A stretch of DNA of 64,000 bases, taken from Azorinus chamasolen (Eukaryota > Mollusca > Bivalvia > Cardiida > Solecurtidae). The stretch covers positions 70,464,379 through 70,528,378 of the forward strand of contig OY755236.1 in NCBI GenBank assembly GCA_963576725.1, given 5' to 3'. The notes under the pieces were generated by a model. It searched no databases and was not told where the DNA came from. It saw nothing but the letters and a program-made list of their open reading frames with translations. How positions within the stretch are numbered: the stretch's first letter is position 1; the number at the start of each line of letters is the position of its first letter. Position numbers and translations under genes: made by a program. Below, in pieces: positions 1,487 to 61,240 of this stretch.

Positions 1487-1702
1487 CTGGTGAATGTATA
1501 TGTCAGAAATAATGATGTCATGATTATTAACTTTGTAAATGGCACATCAAAACTGATAGTCTTGGCCATGGCAGAAATTAGAACCAAATTTAAATTATTT
1601 CATAAGAAAACAGTCCATACCCTAATCAAATGGCTCCAACAAGAACCATTCGCTCTGGGTCTACTCTGTTTGCAGTCATACCTCTATCAGGTAAAAGGGT
1701 AA
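1487..1702. repeat. P1 palindrome-core MITE, diverged
   Basis: Contains AGAAATAATGATGTCATGAT, GCCATGGCAGAAA, the hairpin half TCTGGGTCTACTCTGTTTGC and the end GGTAAAAGGGTAA. The hairpin arms are partly decayed. Confidence 0.55.
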
Positions 1703-1936
1703 GAAGTAATTATAAACTATCATACAGAAATTGATGCGGATGGGTATTTCATATTAAGGGCTACTACACAATGTATATATTTTGGGTTAAATGACAAATA
1801 ATACAAACAGATCTGTTCATATTTATTGACATATCAAAGAAACATGGACTATTACAATGAAAACACATCTACTCCCATAACATTCTTCAGAATATACATT
1901 AACAGTGATATCATGCTTATTACTGCAGGGTGAATC

Positions 1937-2130
1937 TTCTTAACCCTTCACTCTATAGATACCCCTTTTTATGCCTTTGCAAACAAAGTAGACCCAGATC
2001 AGATGGCTCCATTAAGAGCCATCTGATCAGGGTCTGCCCTGTTTGCCTATGTAGTTCTGATTTTAAAGTTCCAGACGTTACCAAGAAATCATGTGTCCAA
2101 ATGCCATTATAAAAATCAGCTAATTAATAT
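1937..2130. repeat. P1 palindrome-core MITE
   Basis: Starts TTAACCCTTCACTC and holds a nearly perfect palindrome, 1979-2047 (GCAAACAAAGTAGACCCAG arm, GATCAGATGGCTCC, loop ATTA). The outer end past 2130 is unclear. Confidence 0.65.
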
Positions 2131-2616
2131 CTATGATATCACTATATCGTACACAAGTATTTAATTCATGGAGTATCTATATCTAGCTATATAGTAATGG
2201 TAACTCCTCTTTCGAGTGTTACTGACATGAAGAACTGCAAGCAATAATCACAGGACATTCATATCTACACCTACGTAATGTTTAGCAAGATTTGTTTACT
2301 ATACATTCCAACTTACAATGCTCTATTATTGTTTATGTATGCATTATTGCAAGAAATCTACATCTACTACATCTACTAGTCAATGAAATGTACCAACATA
2401 TACCATGAAATCACATTTTAAAGAGAGCACAAATTATATGGGAAATATCAAATGAGCTTCTCTTTACATAGACTAAAACCATTTGACAAAACCAAATGCT
2501 GTCCAAATGACAAATGAGCCACAGCACTGGAAATAGTGCACATGTGTCATAATGCACATGTATCATTCACTAGCAGCTGGTGTGTTTTGTCAAAAAAATA
2601 CAAACCCTTCAGACAG

Positions 2617-2838
2617 CCTATTAAACCCTTTACCTCATACAAATGCCTTTCCATGCCTTTGAAAACAGAGCAGACCAATATGTTGAAGCCACGGGTCAGT
2701 TCTGTTTATGAAATAATATTGACATGATCCTATAGTTTCTGGTAAAACATAATTTATTATCTTGTTCATATTGTCAATCAGCTAATTAATATTCATAATC
2801 AATCTTTCTTACATTAATATTCATGAGGGAAAGGGTTA
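2617..2838. repeat. P1 MITE with decayed core
   Basis: Termini AAACCCTTTACCTC and GGGAAAGGGTTAAA are intact, and the left arm CAAATGCC...GAAAACAGAGCAGACC is visible. The palindrome centre is scrambled. Confidence 0.55.
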
Positions 2839-2904
2839 AACAATAGAACTTTGATACAGTAGTTACTTCATATCTATGGGTGTCTTATGGGACATGTCTA
2901 TGGG

Positions 2905-3110
2905 TGCCTTTATCCCATGAATATTCATGTAAGAAATATTGATATCATGAATATCAATTAGCTGATTTTTTACAATAATATTGACCACTAGAAGGTTCGG
3001 CCATGGCAGGAATTGTGGAATTAGATTTATTATTCTTTCACTAGCAAACAGAACAGATTCTTACAGGAACCATCAGATCAGGTTCTACTCTATTAGCAAA
3101 GGCATTAACC
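2905..3110. repeat. P1 MITE
   Basis: CATGAATATTCATGTAAGAA, GGCCATGGCAGGAA and a core with GCAAACAGAACAG and AGGTTCTACTCTATTAGC. It abuts the next MITE so that the two share AACCC. Confidence 0.55.
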
Positions 3111-3343
3111 CTTACAGTGTGGGACATATGTCATTAATGCCTCTTACAAACATGGTAGACTCAGATAAGAAGGCTCCTAGAGGAGTGGTGTATGGTGGTG
3201 GCTCCTAGAGGAGCTCTCTCATCAGTGTCTGCAAAGTTTGTCACGTTACATTTTTGTTAGAAAAATCCCTAAATATTCACCATAAGCGTGACATGTTTGA
3301 ATTTTGGAAAAGTCCATTTGAAAATTCAGCGCTGAAAGGGTTA
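3106..3343. repeat. P2 palindrome-core MITE
   Basis: Begins TTAACCCTTACAGTG and ends GCGCTGAAAGGGTTAA. The core holds GGCTCCTAGAGGAG twice, showing a small internal duplication. P2 shares the terminus TTAACCCTT with P1 but has different arms. Confidence 0.6.
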
Positions 3344-3697
3344 AAAGATGTATCTATGGTGTAAAGGAGTAAAAGTAGACTAAGGAGGCTGTTCCATGAA
3401 GAAGAAAACCACCAGCACTTATTGCCCAGGGTTTAGAAATGATTGGCCATTGTAGAGAGATTTGAAATTCAGATGTGGCTGAGCTGGGGTCTCACCATTA
3501 ATTTTGCAATGTACAAAGACTGGCTTTCCCACAGCAGGCACTTGTGGTTTTCTTCTGCCTCTGCACATCTGACAAACTGTCAATAGTTAAAGTATATTAT
3601 TGCACAATCTGACAAAATGTAGTTGGCATTAAATGAATGAAACTGAACACAATATTAAACATGTCTGGTGCTCCCTCCCCCTCAACAGACATCATCC

Positions 3698-3830
3698 CCT
3701 TAATACTCGAAATCTTGCCATTTTACGCTTTTGCAAACAGTAAAGACCCAGATCAGATAGCTACAGTAGGAGCTGTTTTATGAGGGTCTGATATTTAATT
3801 ACATGTTACAGATCTGATATGTACTGTTTG
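3698..3830. repeat. P1 MITE fragment
   Basis: Left half with TTTTGCAAACAGTAAAGACC and CAGATCAGATAGCT, partial right arm. No right terminus. Confidence 0.4.
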
Positions 3831-3899
3831 CCATGGTTAAACATTTCCTTATTTCATAACACAAGAATTGATATTGAAAATGGGCTAAGTCTTCTATAC

Positions 3900-5185
3900 T
3901 ACAATAGTGCACTGTAAGACCAGATATCTAATACCCCACTGACCCTATAAACTGTCAGACCATGCCTACAACCACACAGTGAACAGTAAGATCGTGTATA
4001 TACAACCCTAATGACACTTTAAACTGTAAGACCATGTCTACAACCACACAGTGAACAGTAAGCTCATGTATATATGTAACTCTACTTACACTATAAACTG
4101 TAAGATCACATCTATAACCTGACTTACAATATAACTGAGCTGTAAGATAACATAGCAACAATACCAGTTATCACTATAATAGTGAATTGTAAATCATATG
4201 TCTTCAACACATTCACTATAACCCATTCCCCCATACTGACGCCTTTGTAAAGGTCACTTTTTGAAAACATTGTGATTTATAACAATGGTTTCAATACTAC
4301 ACAATTCTAAAATGTTCTTTTTCTAGCAAATGCTTCTTTTTGGTAGATTTATTCAAAGAGGTTGGATCTATGAGGGAATTAGATAAATGTGAGCTGTAAG
4401 ATCATATGTCTACAACCCTACTAACACTATAACAATGAACTGTAAGATCATACATCAACAACCCCCACTTAAACTACAATAGTGAACTGTAAGATCATAT
4501 GTCTACAACCCCCACTTAAACTACAATAGTGAACTGTAAGATCATACATCAACAACCCCCACTTAAACTACAATAGTGAACTGTAAGATCATATGTCTAC
4601 AACACCTACACTACAATAGTGAACTGTAAGATCATACGTCTACAAATCCCACTACAATAGTGAACTGTAAGATAATATGTCCACAACATCCACTTACACT
4701 ATAATAGTGAACTGTAAGACCCTACGTCAACACCTGACTCACACTATAACAGTGAACTGTAAGATTATATGCCTACAACCCCACCAACTACAATAGTGAA
4801 CTATAAGATCATATATCTACAACCCCCACTTGCACTATTGTGGAGAACTGTAAGATCCTAAATCAACACCCGACTCACACTATAACAGTGAAATGTAAGA
4901 TCATATGTCTACAATCTCACCTACACTACAATAGTGAACTGTAAGATCATATGTCTACAACCCCCACTTACACTATAACAGTGAACTGTATGATCATATG
5001 TCTACAACCCCCACTTACACTTTAATAGTTAACTGTACGATCATATGTCTACAACCCCCACTTATACTATAATAGTGAACTGTAAGATCATATGTCTACA
5101 ACCCCCACCTACACTACAATAGTGAACTGCAAGATCATATGTCTACAACCCCCACTTACACTATAACAGTGAATTCTATGATCAT
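3900..5185. repeat. 47-bp minisatellite, about 20-25 units
   Basis: Unit of about 47 bp: GATCATATGTCTACAACC, then CCCACTTACACTA, then ACAGTGAACTGTAA. Interrupted by non-repeat sequence at about 4200-4385. It lies downstream of the KDM1A stop codon; short open frames here are by-products of the repeat. Confidence 0.85.
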
Positions 5186-5535
5186 ATACATGCATCTGCT
5201 AATAGCATATTTAAAAGCACTTATTCCTGCACAGAAATCTACCTAGGATGTCACACTTCAATGTCACATGCTTTAACATACTGGTATCTCAAACAGGCTA
5301 TCTTTAAATCTTATTCTCTTATATGCACTGTGATATGTGTAACTACTAGGAATATTAAAATGCTTTGTATCTATTAACAGCATTTCACACATACATGCAT
5401 TTTCCCAAATCTGAGTGTACATGCTAGTGATATATTGTATATTTTCATGACTTCATAAATCTTTATTAGCTGAACTTAATTGGTTCATGTACATAGGGAT
5501 GTTTGTAATGCTATAAGCTGTAGTCAGATCTATTA

Positions 5536-5640
5536 TAACTATGTAAGCAAATAGAGCAGACCCTGATCAGACGCCTCCTACAGGCAGTCTGACATGGGTC
5601 CACTCTCTTAGCAAGGCATGAAAAAGACACTTATATTAGA
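5536..5640. repeat. P1 core only
   Basis: Palindrome core with AAGCAAATAGAGCAGACC, GATCAGACGCCTCC, CAGGCAGTCTGAC and GGGTCCACTCTCTTAGC. The outer parts are not convincing. Confidence 0.45.
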
Positions 5641-5689
5641 GAAAAAGTTAAGCATTATCATTATTACATTCATCTTGTATCAAATACTT

Positions 5690-5916
5690 ACCATTATAAA
5701 ATCACCTTTTCTCGCCTTTGCAAAGAGAGAAGATCCAGATTTGACAGAACCTGTAGAAACAGTCTGATCAGGGTCTGCTCTGTTTGCTTATCTGATTCTA
5801 CAGTTTCTATTATGGCCAAATATTCCCTTGTTCTTAAGCCATTATAAAAATTGTTCTAATTAATATTCATGATGTCATTATTTCTTACATGAGAATTCAT
5901 CAGGTAAAGGGTTCAG
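5690..5916. repeat. P1 MITE
   Basis: Core with TTTGCAAAGAGAGAAGATCC and CTGATCAGGGTCTGCTCTG, then GATTCTACAGTTTC, AATTAATATTCATGATGTC and the end CAGGTAAAGGGTT. Confidence 0.55.
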
Positions 5917-5933
5917 CTACTAGTACTGCAGTA

Positions 5934-6156
5934 AGACTTCCTGTAACCTGCTCAATGCTGATTTTCAAATGGACTGCTCCAAAATTCAAACAGGTCAAGC
6001 TTACGGTGTATATTTAGGGATTTTTCTAATAAAATCTGTTATCTGACAAACAGTGTACACCCTGATGAGAGAGATCCTCTAGGAACCCTCTCATTTTGGT
6101 CTACAACATTTGCAAAGGACATTAGTGACTCGTGTCCTGCACTATAAGGCTTAAGG
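5934..6156. repeat. P2 MITE
   Basis: Mirror orientation of the copy at 3106. Carries CAAATGGACTGCTCC, TATTTAGGGATTTTTCTAA, the core AAACAGTGTACACCCTGATG and GACATTAGTGACTCGTGTCC. It lies in the 3' flank or 3' UTR of KDM1A. Confidence 0.55.
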
Positions 6157-6297
6157 AATTTGTTTAAAGATACTTAACCCAAACACATTGATGCATCATT
6201 AGCAGTTAAAGGATGACATTTTAACTGGAAACATTTGCCATTTTTTCCAATAAATAGTCAGGTCCCTGAAACACATATTGGTCCTTCAGAATTGAGA

Positions 6298-60108
<53,811 letters not shown>

Positions 60109-60629
60109 CTATTCAATAGATGAAAATTATTTGATTTTGACTTCATCGAATCCTGGACATCACTTTAATAACTTTATACTTAAACAGATCATCACTTCAA
60201 AAACACAGGATGAGCTTTTCTCGGTTCCACTGGTTATGACAAAGTAAAAATCAAGTGTTTAAATAAAATTGCAATGTATCTAAATAGGACCTGTACTTTT
60301 AAACAGTCATTATAGTACATAGTAATAGTAGTATACTGCTTTCTTGTTGCAAGACAGAGTGGATTCTAATCAGATTCATATGGTTATCAGTATTTTGTAA
60401 TGATGTTTCGTAGGTCTAAAACTGAGCCCTATATGAAACATATCTTTTTTATTTTAGCATATCACTTTTGACATTTGTGTCAGACCGTATAATATAGCAA
60501 CCTGTAAGTAGCCTAACTGTACCAAAGAATCTTCATTTTTAATTACTGTTTCAATTTTGAGACACCTTTTGAGATGCAAGACACCATCTAATTTTACACC
60601 TGCATCAAAATTACAATTTATTACAACCA

Positions 60630-60840
60630 TATACAGTAAAAGCCCTCTAAACCAAATTCTAGTAGAGAACAATTAAGATACGTTTAGGCAGGTGGCTGCT
60701 TAATGCAGGGAGAAAGTCATGCAGGAAGCTCATAAAGGAGCTTTCTGCATGACTTTCACCCTGCAATAAGCTGCCAACTGTCTCAAAGACCGATATCTAT
60801 ACTACATTGAATGTCTCATTAACAGGGGTTTTATTGTATA
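60630..60840. repeat. TACAGTAAAACC-type MITE with central hairpin
   Basis: Termini TATACAGTAAAAGCCCT and inverted TATACAATAAAACCCCT. Centre: GGTGGCTGCTTAATGCAGGG, GAAAGTCATGCAGGAAGCTC and its inverted copy (60691-60731, 60738-60778). Relative of 53635 and of the palindrome at 36140. Confidence 0.7.
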
Positions 60841-60965
60841 GGCCTTACCCAACCCCTTCTTTTTTAATATTTCATAAGCATTTATATTCAAAGCATTTAT
60901 ATTGCATGCCTTACAAACCCTCATGCTCCTAAACACCACCACACAAACCCAAATTAACCTGAAGT

Positions 60966-61240
60966 TATTTCAGAAGGCGGAAGGGAGGAAAGTGTGCTAC
61001 TTTGGGGAGTTAAACTTTCCCCTCATAGAGATACCCTTTTCAACTTTTGCAAACAGAGCAGACCCAGATCAGATGGGGGCCATCTGATCAGGGTGTGCTT
61101 TATTTGCTTATGAAACTGTATAGATACGAATTTAGTCAATTTACAGTTAATGGAATGGCCTGTGTTCATATACAATTGTAAAAAATCAGCTAATAAATGC
61201 TCATGATGTCATCATTCATAAATGTTCACCTTTTCACCAA
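60966..61240. repeat. P1 MITE; 90-bp left part duplicated at 61408
   Basis: TTTCCCCTCATAGAGATACC, TTTGCAAACAGAGCAGACCC, AGATCAGATGG, GGCCATCTGATCAGGG. The preceding CAGAAGGCGGAAGGGAGGAA through CATAGAGATACCC recurs at 61408-61495. Confidence 0.6.

Follow-up and report, generated by a model that had tools for sequence, protein, structure and literature searches.

We propose that an internal palindrome is under selection as a cis-acting element, kept at a fixed distance from the left end, in several families of piggyBac-type MITEs in the window (the whole 64-kb stretch of DNA analysed here), and we give this reading a probability of roughly 0.4. Several observations argue for selection, among them the following. 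The consensus palindromes of families P1a and P1b (six and five copies) are identical at 67 of 68 positions, the sole difference falling in the loop, while the 29 bp of spacer adjoining the palindrome agree at 55%; and pair 18 of the palindrome stayed unpaired in eight of eight RNA folds (six copies, one fold being poor). Between families the two arms have changed in coordination, and the results suggest a function of the hairpin as such in the element that carries it.

The window has a GC content of 32-46% (4-kb steps), a CpG observed/expected ratio of 0.38 and plentiful tandem and dispersed repeats. There are 62 occurrences of the motif CAAACAG, where shuffled sequence has 13.9 +/- 3.6, and a profile made from 20 seed palindromes found 53 palindrome-bearing loci (E<=0.05) spanning positions 1604 to 61109, 31 in plus and 22 in minus orientation, so the CAAACAG-opening palindrome repeat reported in the preliminary description is real. 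The ends were searched with the motifs TTAACCCTTT (left) and AAAGGGTTAA (right), allowing up to 2 mismatches and using 1000 control sites. A left end was found at 34 of the 53 loci (34/1000 controls), a right end at 28 (89/1000 controls), and at least one TTAACCCTTT-like end at 44 (120/1000 controls). Both ends were found at 18 loci (3/1000 controls), with exact TTAA on both ends at 11 of the 18 and exact TTAACC...GGTTAA at eight; P4, with 4 mismatches to the search motif at its right end, stands outside this count. That more than 40 copies share their termini, as first described, thus holds for one, often decayed, terminus, and is overstated for both ends, since only 18 of 53 loci have the two and only 11 of them exact TTAA.

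Terminal inverted repeats beginning 5' CCC(TT), by which a piggyBac-type MITE is recognised, are present according to these end counts against controls. The inverted ends run to about 17 bp in P3 and P4 (by eye from blastn), and the eight elements of Table 1 in which both ends and a near-complete palindrome are present measure 209-251 bp. Because TTAA, a putative target-site duplication, is combined with CCCTT ends, the sequences point to several families of non-autonomous piggyBac-type MITEs, in a eukaryotic genome that, judged by its repeat types, is probably that of a mollusc. No piggyBac transposase was found among the 26 of 43 stop-to-stop ORFs of the window (>=95 aa) that were scanned against Pfam. 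Rfam structured RNA families gave 0 matches above the gathering score in the window, which rules out a known Rfam RNA as the identity of the repeat. When collections of viral and prokaryotic contigs were scanned for the pattern, no palindrome-bearing relative came up among the three of five matches whose surroundings were read.

Other features of the window include a mariner-type transposase fragment at 54283-54930 on the minus strand (Pfam Transposase_1 and DDE_3), and broken reading frames at 12553-14265, also minus, with a single sub-threshold reverse-transcriptase match, which may belong to a retroelement. Arrays of units of about 165 bp and 155 bp at 32734-35061 and 57402-58735, partly alike by eye, may be dispersed satellite-like repeats. 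Three other long inverted repeats, at 55813-55973, 23508-23648 and 24449-24609, have arms of 69-73 nt that are 86-94% complementary, and the first two, judged by eye, lie in or next to the tails of P1 MITEs.

Six families (P1a, P1b, P2a, P2b, P3 and P4) were told apart by eye from flanks and blastn, and their members are listed in Table 1. All four variants of the inner arms and all four subterminal motifs named in the preliminary description exist in the window, as flanks and blastn show. Apart from their termini, the families have little in common beyond a quasi-palindrome of 68 bp and a spacing of about 39 bp (38-42) on the left. When P3 was used as query, its other matches in the window were limited to the palindrome; P4 matched itself, through its palindrome read in reverse, and a 29-bp stretch at 38177-38205, in and beside a P1 palindrome. 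The P3 palindrome has the fewest arm mismatches among 18 palindromes compared.

Table 1. MITE families, elements and palindromes in the window
Family	Feature	Position	Strand	Description
P1a	family			ends TTAACCCTTTACY ... GGTAAAGGGTTAA
P1b	family			ends TTAACCCTTTCCC ... GGGAAAGGGTTAA
P2a	family			left end TTAACCCTTACAGTGC ...
P2b	family			left end TTAACCCTTTGAATGC ...
P3	family			left end TTAACCCTTCGCTTGCT ...; single copy in window
P4	family			left end TTAAACCTTTAGCCTGCT ...; single copy in window
	MITE end sequences			also given as TTAACCCTTTACC, beside TTAACCCTTCGCTTGCT and TTAAACCTTTAGCCTGCT
P1a	element	9258..9508	+	251 bp; palindrome 9297-9364
P1a	element	23890..24103	-	214 bp; TTAA at both ends
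P1a	element	39234..39468	-	235 bp; deletion at palindrome centre
P1a	palindrome	1979..2046	+	39 bp from TTAACC at 1940
P1a	palindrome	28505..28572	-	39 bp from TTAACC at 28611
P1a	palindrome	36288..36355	+	
P1a	palindrome	55699..55766	+	left arm GACAG, right arm CCATC (unmatched); private matched change at pair 2
P1b	element	37688..37937	+	250 bp; TTAACCCTTACCC ... GGGAAAGGGTTAA; palindrome 37727-37794
P1b	element	17084..17333	-	250 bp; TTAA at both ends; palindrome 17227-17294
P1b	element	27480..27728	-	249 bp; decayed ends TTGACC / GGTTAT; palindrome 27622-27689
P1b	element	16331..16536	-	palindrome truncated
P1b	element	22901..23179	+	palindrome piece tandemly duplicated, 22923-23026, two 52-bp units
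P2a	element	3105..3344	+	240 bp; TTAACCCTTACAGTG ... GCGCTGAAAGGGTTAA; local duplication of palindrome centre, 3145-3240
P2a	palindrome	6046..6113	-	arms GAGAGGG / CTCTCTCATC; 41 bp from TTAAGCC at 6154
P2b	element	15744..15952	-	209 bp; TTAACCCTTTGAATGC ... GCATCGAAAGGGTTAA
P2b	palindrome	16836..16903	+	arms GATCAGAG / CTTTGATC; 38 bp from TTAACC at 16798
P3	element	10934..11178	-	245 bp; TTAACCCTTCGCTTGCT ... AGCAAGCGAAAGGTTAA; palindrome 11072-11139
P4	element	56768..56979	+	212 bp; TTAAACCTTTAGCCTGCT ... AGCAGGCTACAAGTTAA; palindrome 56810-56876; inner arms differ, A.A mispair retained

The stretch 14643-15644 holds two repeats, with 99% matches, of a 500-bp unit that includes the left part of a P1 MITE, so the palindromes at 15036 and 15536 represent a single insertion that was duplicated. 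The two local duplications of palindrome pieces in Table 1 are as expected from replication slippage at a hairpin. Directly inside the right terminus of some P1 and P2a elements, for example 3105-3344, lie the 12-bp palindromes ATGAATATTCAT and TTCAGCGCTGAA (by eye), which are possible candidates for transposase sites.

The quasi-palindrome consists of two 32-base arms and a 4-base loop, and it keeps a constant orientation toward the nearer (left) end of the element. We aligned 32 palindromes out of the 53 loci, leaving out 21 with a profile hit shorter than 55 bp. The P1 consensus forms Watson-Crick pairs at 30 of 32 steps, the exceptions being T.G at step 11 and A.A at step 18. In the alignment step 18 reads AA in 26 palindromes, TA in 2, CA, GA and AT in one each, with one gap; thus A.A is found in 26 of 31 scorable palindromes, which include P1, P2a, P2b, P3 and P4, and the pair is closed (T-A or A-T) in 3. 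Step 11 reads TG in 22, AG in 6, TA in 2, TT in 1 and CG in 1, so that it is non-Watson-Crick in 29 of 32; since the T-A form occurs in P2a and P4 copies, this property of step 11 is not shared by all families.

Where the end is good, most P1 copies have 39 bp between TTAA and the first base of the palindrome, as does P3; the distance is 38 bp in a P2b copy, 41 bp in P2a and 42 bp in P4. Left spacing was measured on 31 loci, and among the 28 with a left end of up to 2 mismatches it is 37-40 bp in 18; the ten outliers measure 41, 42, 29-32, 52 and 10 bp, some of their ends being decayed or mis-called. The near-constant position, orientation and left spacing across families rule out that the palindrome is a separately inserted element.

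The preliminary description had offered, as an alternative to selection for the hairpin, a force that copies one arm to the other. The two mispairs speak against this: with A.A kept at pair 18 in 26 of 31 palindromes, whole-arm copying is not the usual process, and arm-wide conversion, which would have erased the mispairs at 11 and 18, is unsupported as a general force. We reject gene conversion of a whole arm, mispair 18 being retained in every family.

Between families, a single plan with arms that change in coordination is borne out. The P3 palindrome (a single copy) differs from P1 by 7 changes in the left arm and 6 in the right, and all six right-arm changes fall on partners of changed left-arm bases and re-pair (pairs 2, 6, 9, 22, 26 and 27). 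The hypergeometric probability of this sharing is 7.7e-6 even before re-pairing is required; pairs 26-27, two of the six, fall at a former CpG. The spacer of P3 equals that of P1a in length (39 bp), with a sequence likeness of 0.38, not clearly above the 0.29 obtained when shuffled (p=0.18). We also compared 18 gap-free palindromes, all from this one window (15 P1 and one each of P2a, P2b and P3), using shuffles that leave the relatedness of copies in. Ten pairs were changed on both sides vs 5.2 +/- 1.6 shuffled (2/500), and 19 cells vs 7.2 +/- 2.2 (0/500), while slid partners gave 4-7 pairs and 4-8 cells. The covariation score was 0.176, vs 0.118 +/- 0.010 shuffled and 0.038-0.059 with slid partners. 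The covariation term of RNAalifold was nearly nil (-0.11 kcal/mol), which counts against selection, with a kept double change at 9 of 23 predicted pairs.

A likeness of palindromes beside unlike flanks would also arise if recombination or gene conversion between MITE families passed the palindrome as a module and kept it alike while the rest diverged. By eye, the elements starting at 15497 and 29243 resemble P1b on the left and P1a on the right, and copies of P1a, P1b and P2a alike show CCA for CCC at pair 17, a change confined to the left arm. We nevertheless consider such exchange highly improbable: position, orientation and spacing are almost constant, and the P3 and P4 palindromes have clearly diverged from P1 and were not recently swapped.

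Within P1 the arms behave differently from what was first described. The arm test used 19 of the 32 aligned palindromes, after exclusion of six from other families, six gapped or poorly aligned copies and one of two copies in a tandem duplication, and its shuffles leave the relatedness of copies in; the copy at 21507-21574, with a short left-arm deletion misplaced by MAFFT, is in this set and absent from the 15- and 18-copy sets. With their own arms the 19 copies form 460 of 570 Watson-Crick cells, vs 450.0 +/- 4.1 with right arms re-dealt (p=0.011). Without two CpG-like columns the figures are 439 vs 433.2 (p=0.03), and the two columns alone give 21 vs 16.8 (p=0.10). Among the 15 gap-free copies there are 8 compensatory double changes vs 3.1 shuffled (p=0.003), or 5 vs 1.7 without pairs 26-27 (p=0.02). 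Six pairs are changed on both sides vs 3.0 shuffled (13/500), and sliding the partners by +1 also gives 6; the corresponding cells number 8 vs 6 in the +1 slide. Because the shuffle differences are small and the +1 slide is equal, most P1 arm differences are independent decay, to which a small excess of matched changes is added. Thus the statement that P1 arms often still match is correct for pairing as such, and copy-specific co-variation is weak; independent divergence of the arms, which had been named as the refuting outcome, largely holds within P1, and the excess of compensatory changes keeps it from holding wholly.

The main arm polymorphism of P1 is TG or CA at pairs 26-27, and it looks like the outcome of a single CpG loss on either strand. 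The six copies with a CA (GACAG) left arm never have a fully matching right arm, which reads CA in 3, AG in 2 and CG in 1, although pair 26, taken by itself, is matched in three of the six copies; the matched GATGAGACAG variant belongs to P3, a separate family. Ordinary inheritance with CpG decay would explain these data by one old, vertically inherited palindrome, the variants being decay products and the families sharing termini only. It is favoured by the low CpG ratio of the window, by the TG/CA forms at an apparent former CpG and the failure of the CA form to match fully, and by the small difference made by arm shuffles within P1. We regard it as very unlikely, given that it leaves unexplained both the identity of the P1a and P1b palindromes beside a diverged spacer and the six matched changes of P3, and that it is opposed by the covariation in the 18 palindromes.

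Matching could also be maintained by mutation, without selection on structure, if short template switches in replication copy a few bases between arms. Such switching has been described, in excerpts of the cited reports, for RNA hairpins (PMC8794818) and for inverted repeats (PMC8604942). In the copy at 9297-9364 pair 18 is closed (T-A), which is unique among the 18 gap-free palindromes, and pair 21 carries a private change from T-A to A-T; both left-arm changes equal the right arm and lie within a matched tract over pairs 18-25, which makes this copy the strongest candidate for a short stretch copied from one arm to the other. The excess of private compensatory changes in P1 fits as well, as do gaps of at least 6 columns in 5 of the 32 aligned palindromes, all touching the inner part (columns 21-52), as hairpin-induced deletion would produce. 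On the other hand, mispair 18 persists in all families and pair 11 is mostly non-Watson-Crick; the four other private matched changes, pairs 26-27 aside, each affect one pair and form no multi-pair tracts, and so are uninformative; and the change between P1 and P3 needs at least two copied tracts, both sparing pairs 11-18. Template switching alone should have closed step 18, and we judge it somewhat unlikely as the explanation, although it may supply matched mutations for selection to act on.

If the palindrome were transcribed, selection might instead maintain an RNA hairpin, a stem with a fixed internal mismatch that serves small RNAs, silencing evasion or an effect on a host transcript. The best P1 and P3 folds have energies between -50.8 and -54.5 kcal/mol, with z from -10.8 to -11.8. 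The T.G at pair 11 in 22 of 32 palindromes is a G-U wobble on one strand only, and in the P1 copy at 27622 the strand with the G-U step folds at -54.5 vs -45.7 for the other. Some copies may be intronic. On the minus strand, several NAD/FAD-binding Pfam families match 35162-35533 (two of eight above whole-protein cut-offs) and Pfam Amino_oxidase matches 11352-11666 above the cut-off; an FAD-dependent amine oxidase gene may have exons at these two places, and if both belong to one gene, the MITEs in between are intronic. Against an RNA role, the two P3 strands fold equally (-50.8 and -51.3), G.T and A.C mispairs in P1 copies are near equal (30 vs 25) and give no clear strand bias, orientation in the window is mixed, and a mollusc survey, in the excerpt considered, found evidence of Dicer processing of long dsRNA elusive (PMC12479628). 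Nor does an RNA hairpin predict a fixed spacing to the element end. We therefore consider it unlikely; near-constant spacing beside unlike sequence points to a role in transposition at the DNA level.

Selection on a cis-acting palindrome would work as follows. All families would descend from elements with one internal quasi-palindrome, with A.A at 18 and a usually non-Watson-Crick pair 11, and the subterminal sequence specific to each family would presumably be fitted to its own transposase. In active source elements selection would maintain the palindrome, which would act at the DNA level during transposition: two protein subunits would read it as a site of two-fold symmetry, or it would extrude as a hairpin at a fixed distance from the left end. 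A shift in the recognised sequence would force a shift of both arms, so that arms change in coordination between families. Inserted copies would be unselected, and their arms would decay almost independently, partly through CpG loss. Such selection on source elements would give conservation beside a diverged spacer, coordinated arms, an open mispair and near-constant spacing and orientation. Three further points weigh against it: constant spacing could reflect plain inheritance, and 10 of 28 loci are spacing outliers; the private matched changes of P1 (5 vs 1.7) are not what this reading predicts in dead copies, except where these stem from several source elements; and P3 and P4 are each represented by a single copy in the window. 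The stronger proposal, that the MITE superfamily depends on the 68-bp quasi-palindrome with an obligatory A.A mispair and fixed end distance, as a cis-acting hairpin that co-evolved across families answering to different transposases, is at present a distinctly tentative one.

The interior of a MITE is commonly regarded as filler. If the hairpin is conserved above its surroundings, with matched arms, a mispair that is kept and a spacing that hardly varies, such interiors can carry structure under selection, and many decayed copies would let selection and template switching be separated as causes of compensatory stem change. Among the matches listed in open-licence literature, we found no description of MITE arm co-variation, the kept mispair or the spacing, and no paper describing the arm-sequence strings of these MITEs.

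The plan itself is not new, since a MITE with terminal repeats and a 77-bp palindrome has been published. According to excerpts of that report (PMC4732748), 'consensus sequence 1' of Lucina pectinata is MITE-like, 210 bp long, with imperfect TIRs and a central self-complementary 77 bp at 96% identity, and fragments more than 80% similar to three Lucina pectinata consensus sequences occur in Biomphalaria, Aplysia, Crassostrea and Lottia. Set side by side by description only, it resembles the MITEs of the window, also from a bivalve, in its imperfect TIRs and central palindrome (210 bp and 77 bp vs 209-251 bp and 68 bp). It differs in having 30-bp TIRs and no identified target-site duplication, its authors likened it to a rice MITE type rather than piggyBac, and the excerpted description contains no arm variants, fixed mispair or fixed spacing (PMC4732748). 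Kolobok and KolobokP, which occur in molluscs, insert specifically at TTAA, the putative target of the window MITEs; their termini are RR...YY (PMC9587614, in part) instead of CC...GG, which rules out Kolobok as the class. Animal piggyBac elements usually have TTAA as their TSD, and the best conserved motif of their 5' TIR is CCCTT; the window MITEs have the CCCTT terminus and TTAA as a putative target. A long internal palindrome goes unmentioned in the part of that account considered (PMC10813416), and no piggyBac transposase was found in the scanned ORFs of the window. In piggyBac and piggyBat, dimers of the CRD (cysteine-rich domain) bind internal palindromes that are unrelated in sequence between the two transposases, according to excerpts of PMC11707139. 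Like the MITE palindrome, these lie inside the tip and have two half-sites, with asymmetric placement in piggyBac; they measure about 14-19 bp, unlike the 68-bp MITE palindrome with its 4-base loop and fixed mispair (PMC11707139). As the latter is far longer, reading it as a transposase site is an analogy with these piggyBac and piggyBat end palindromes.
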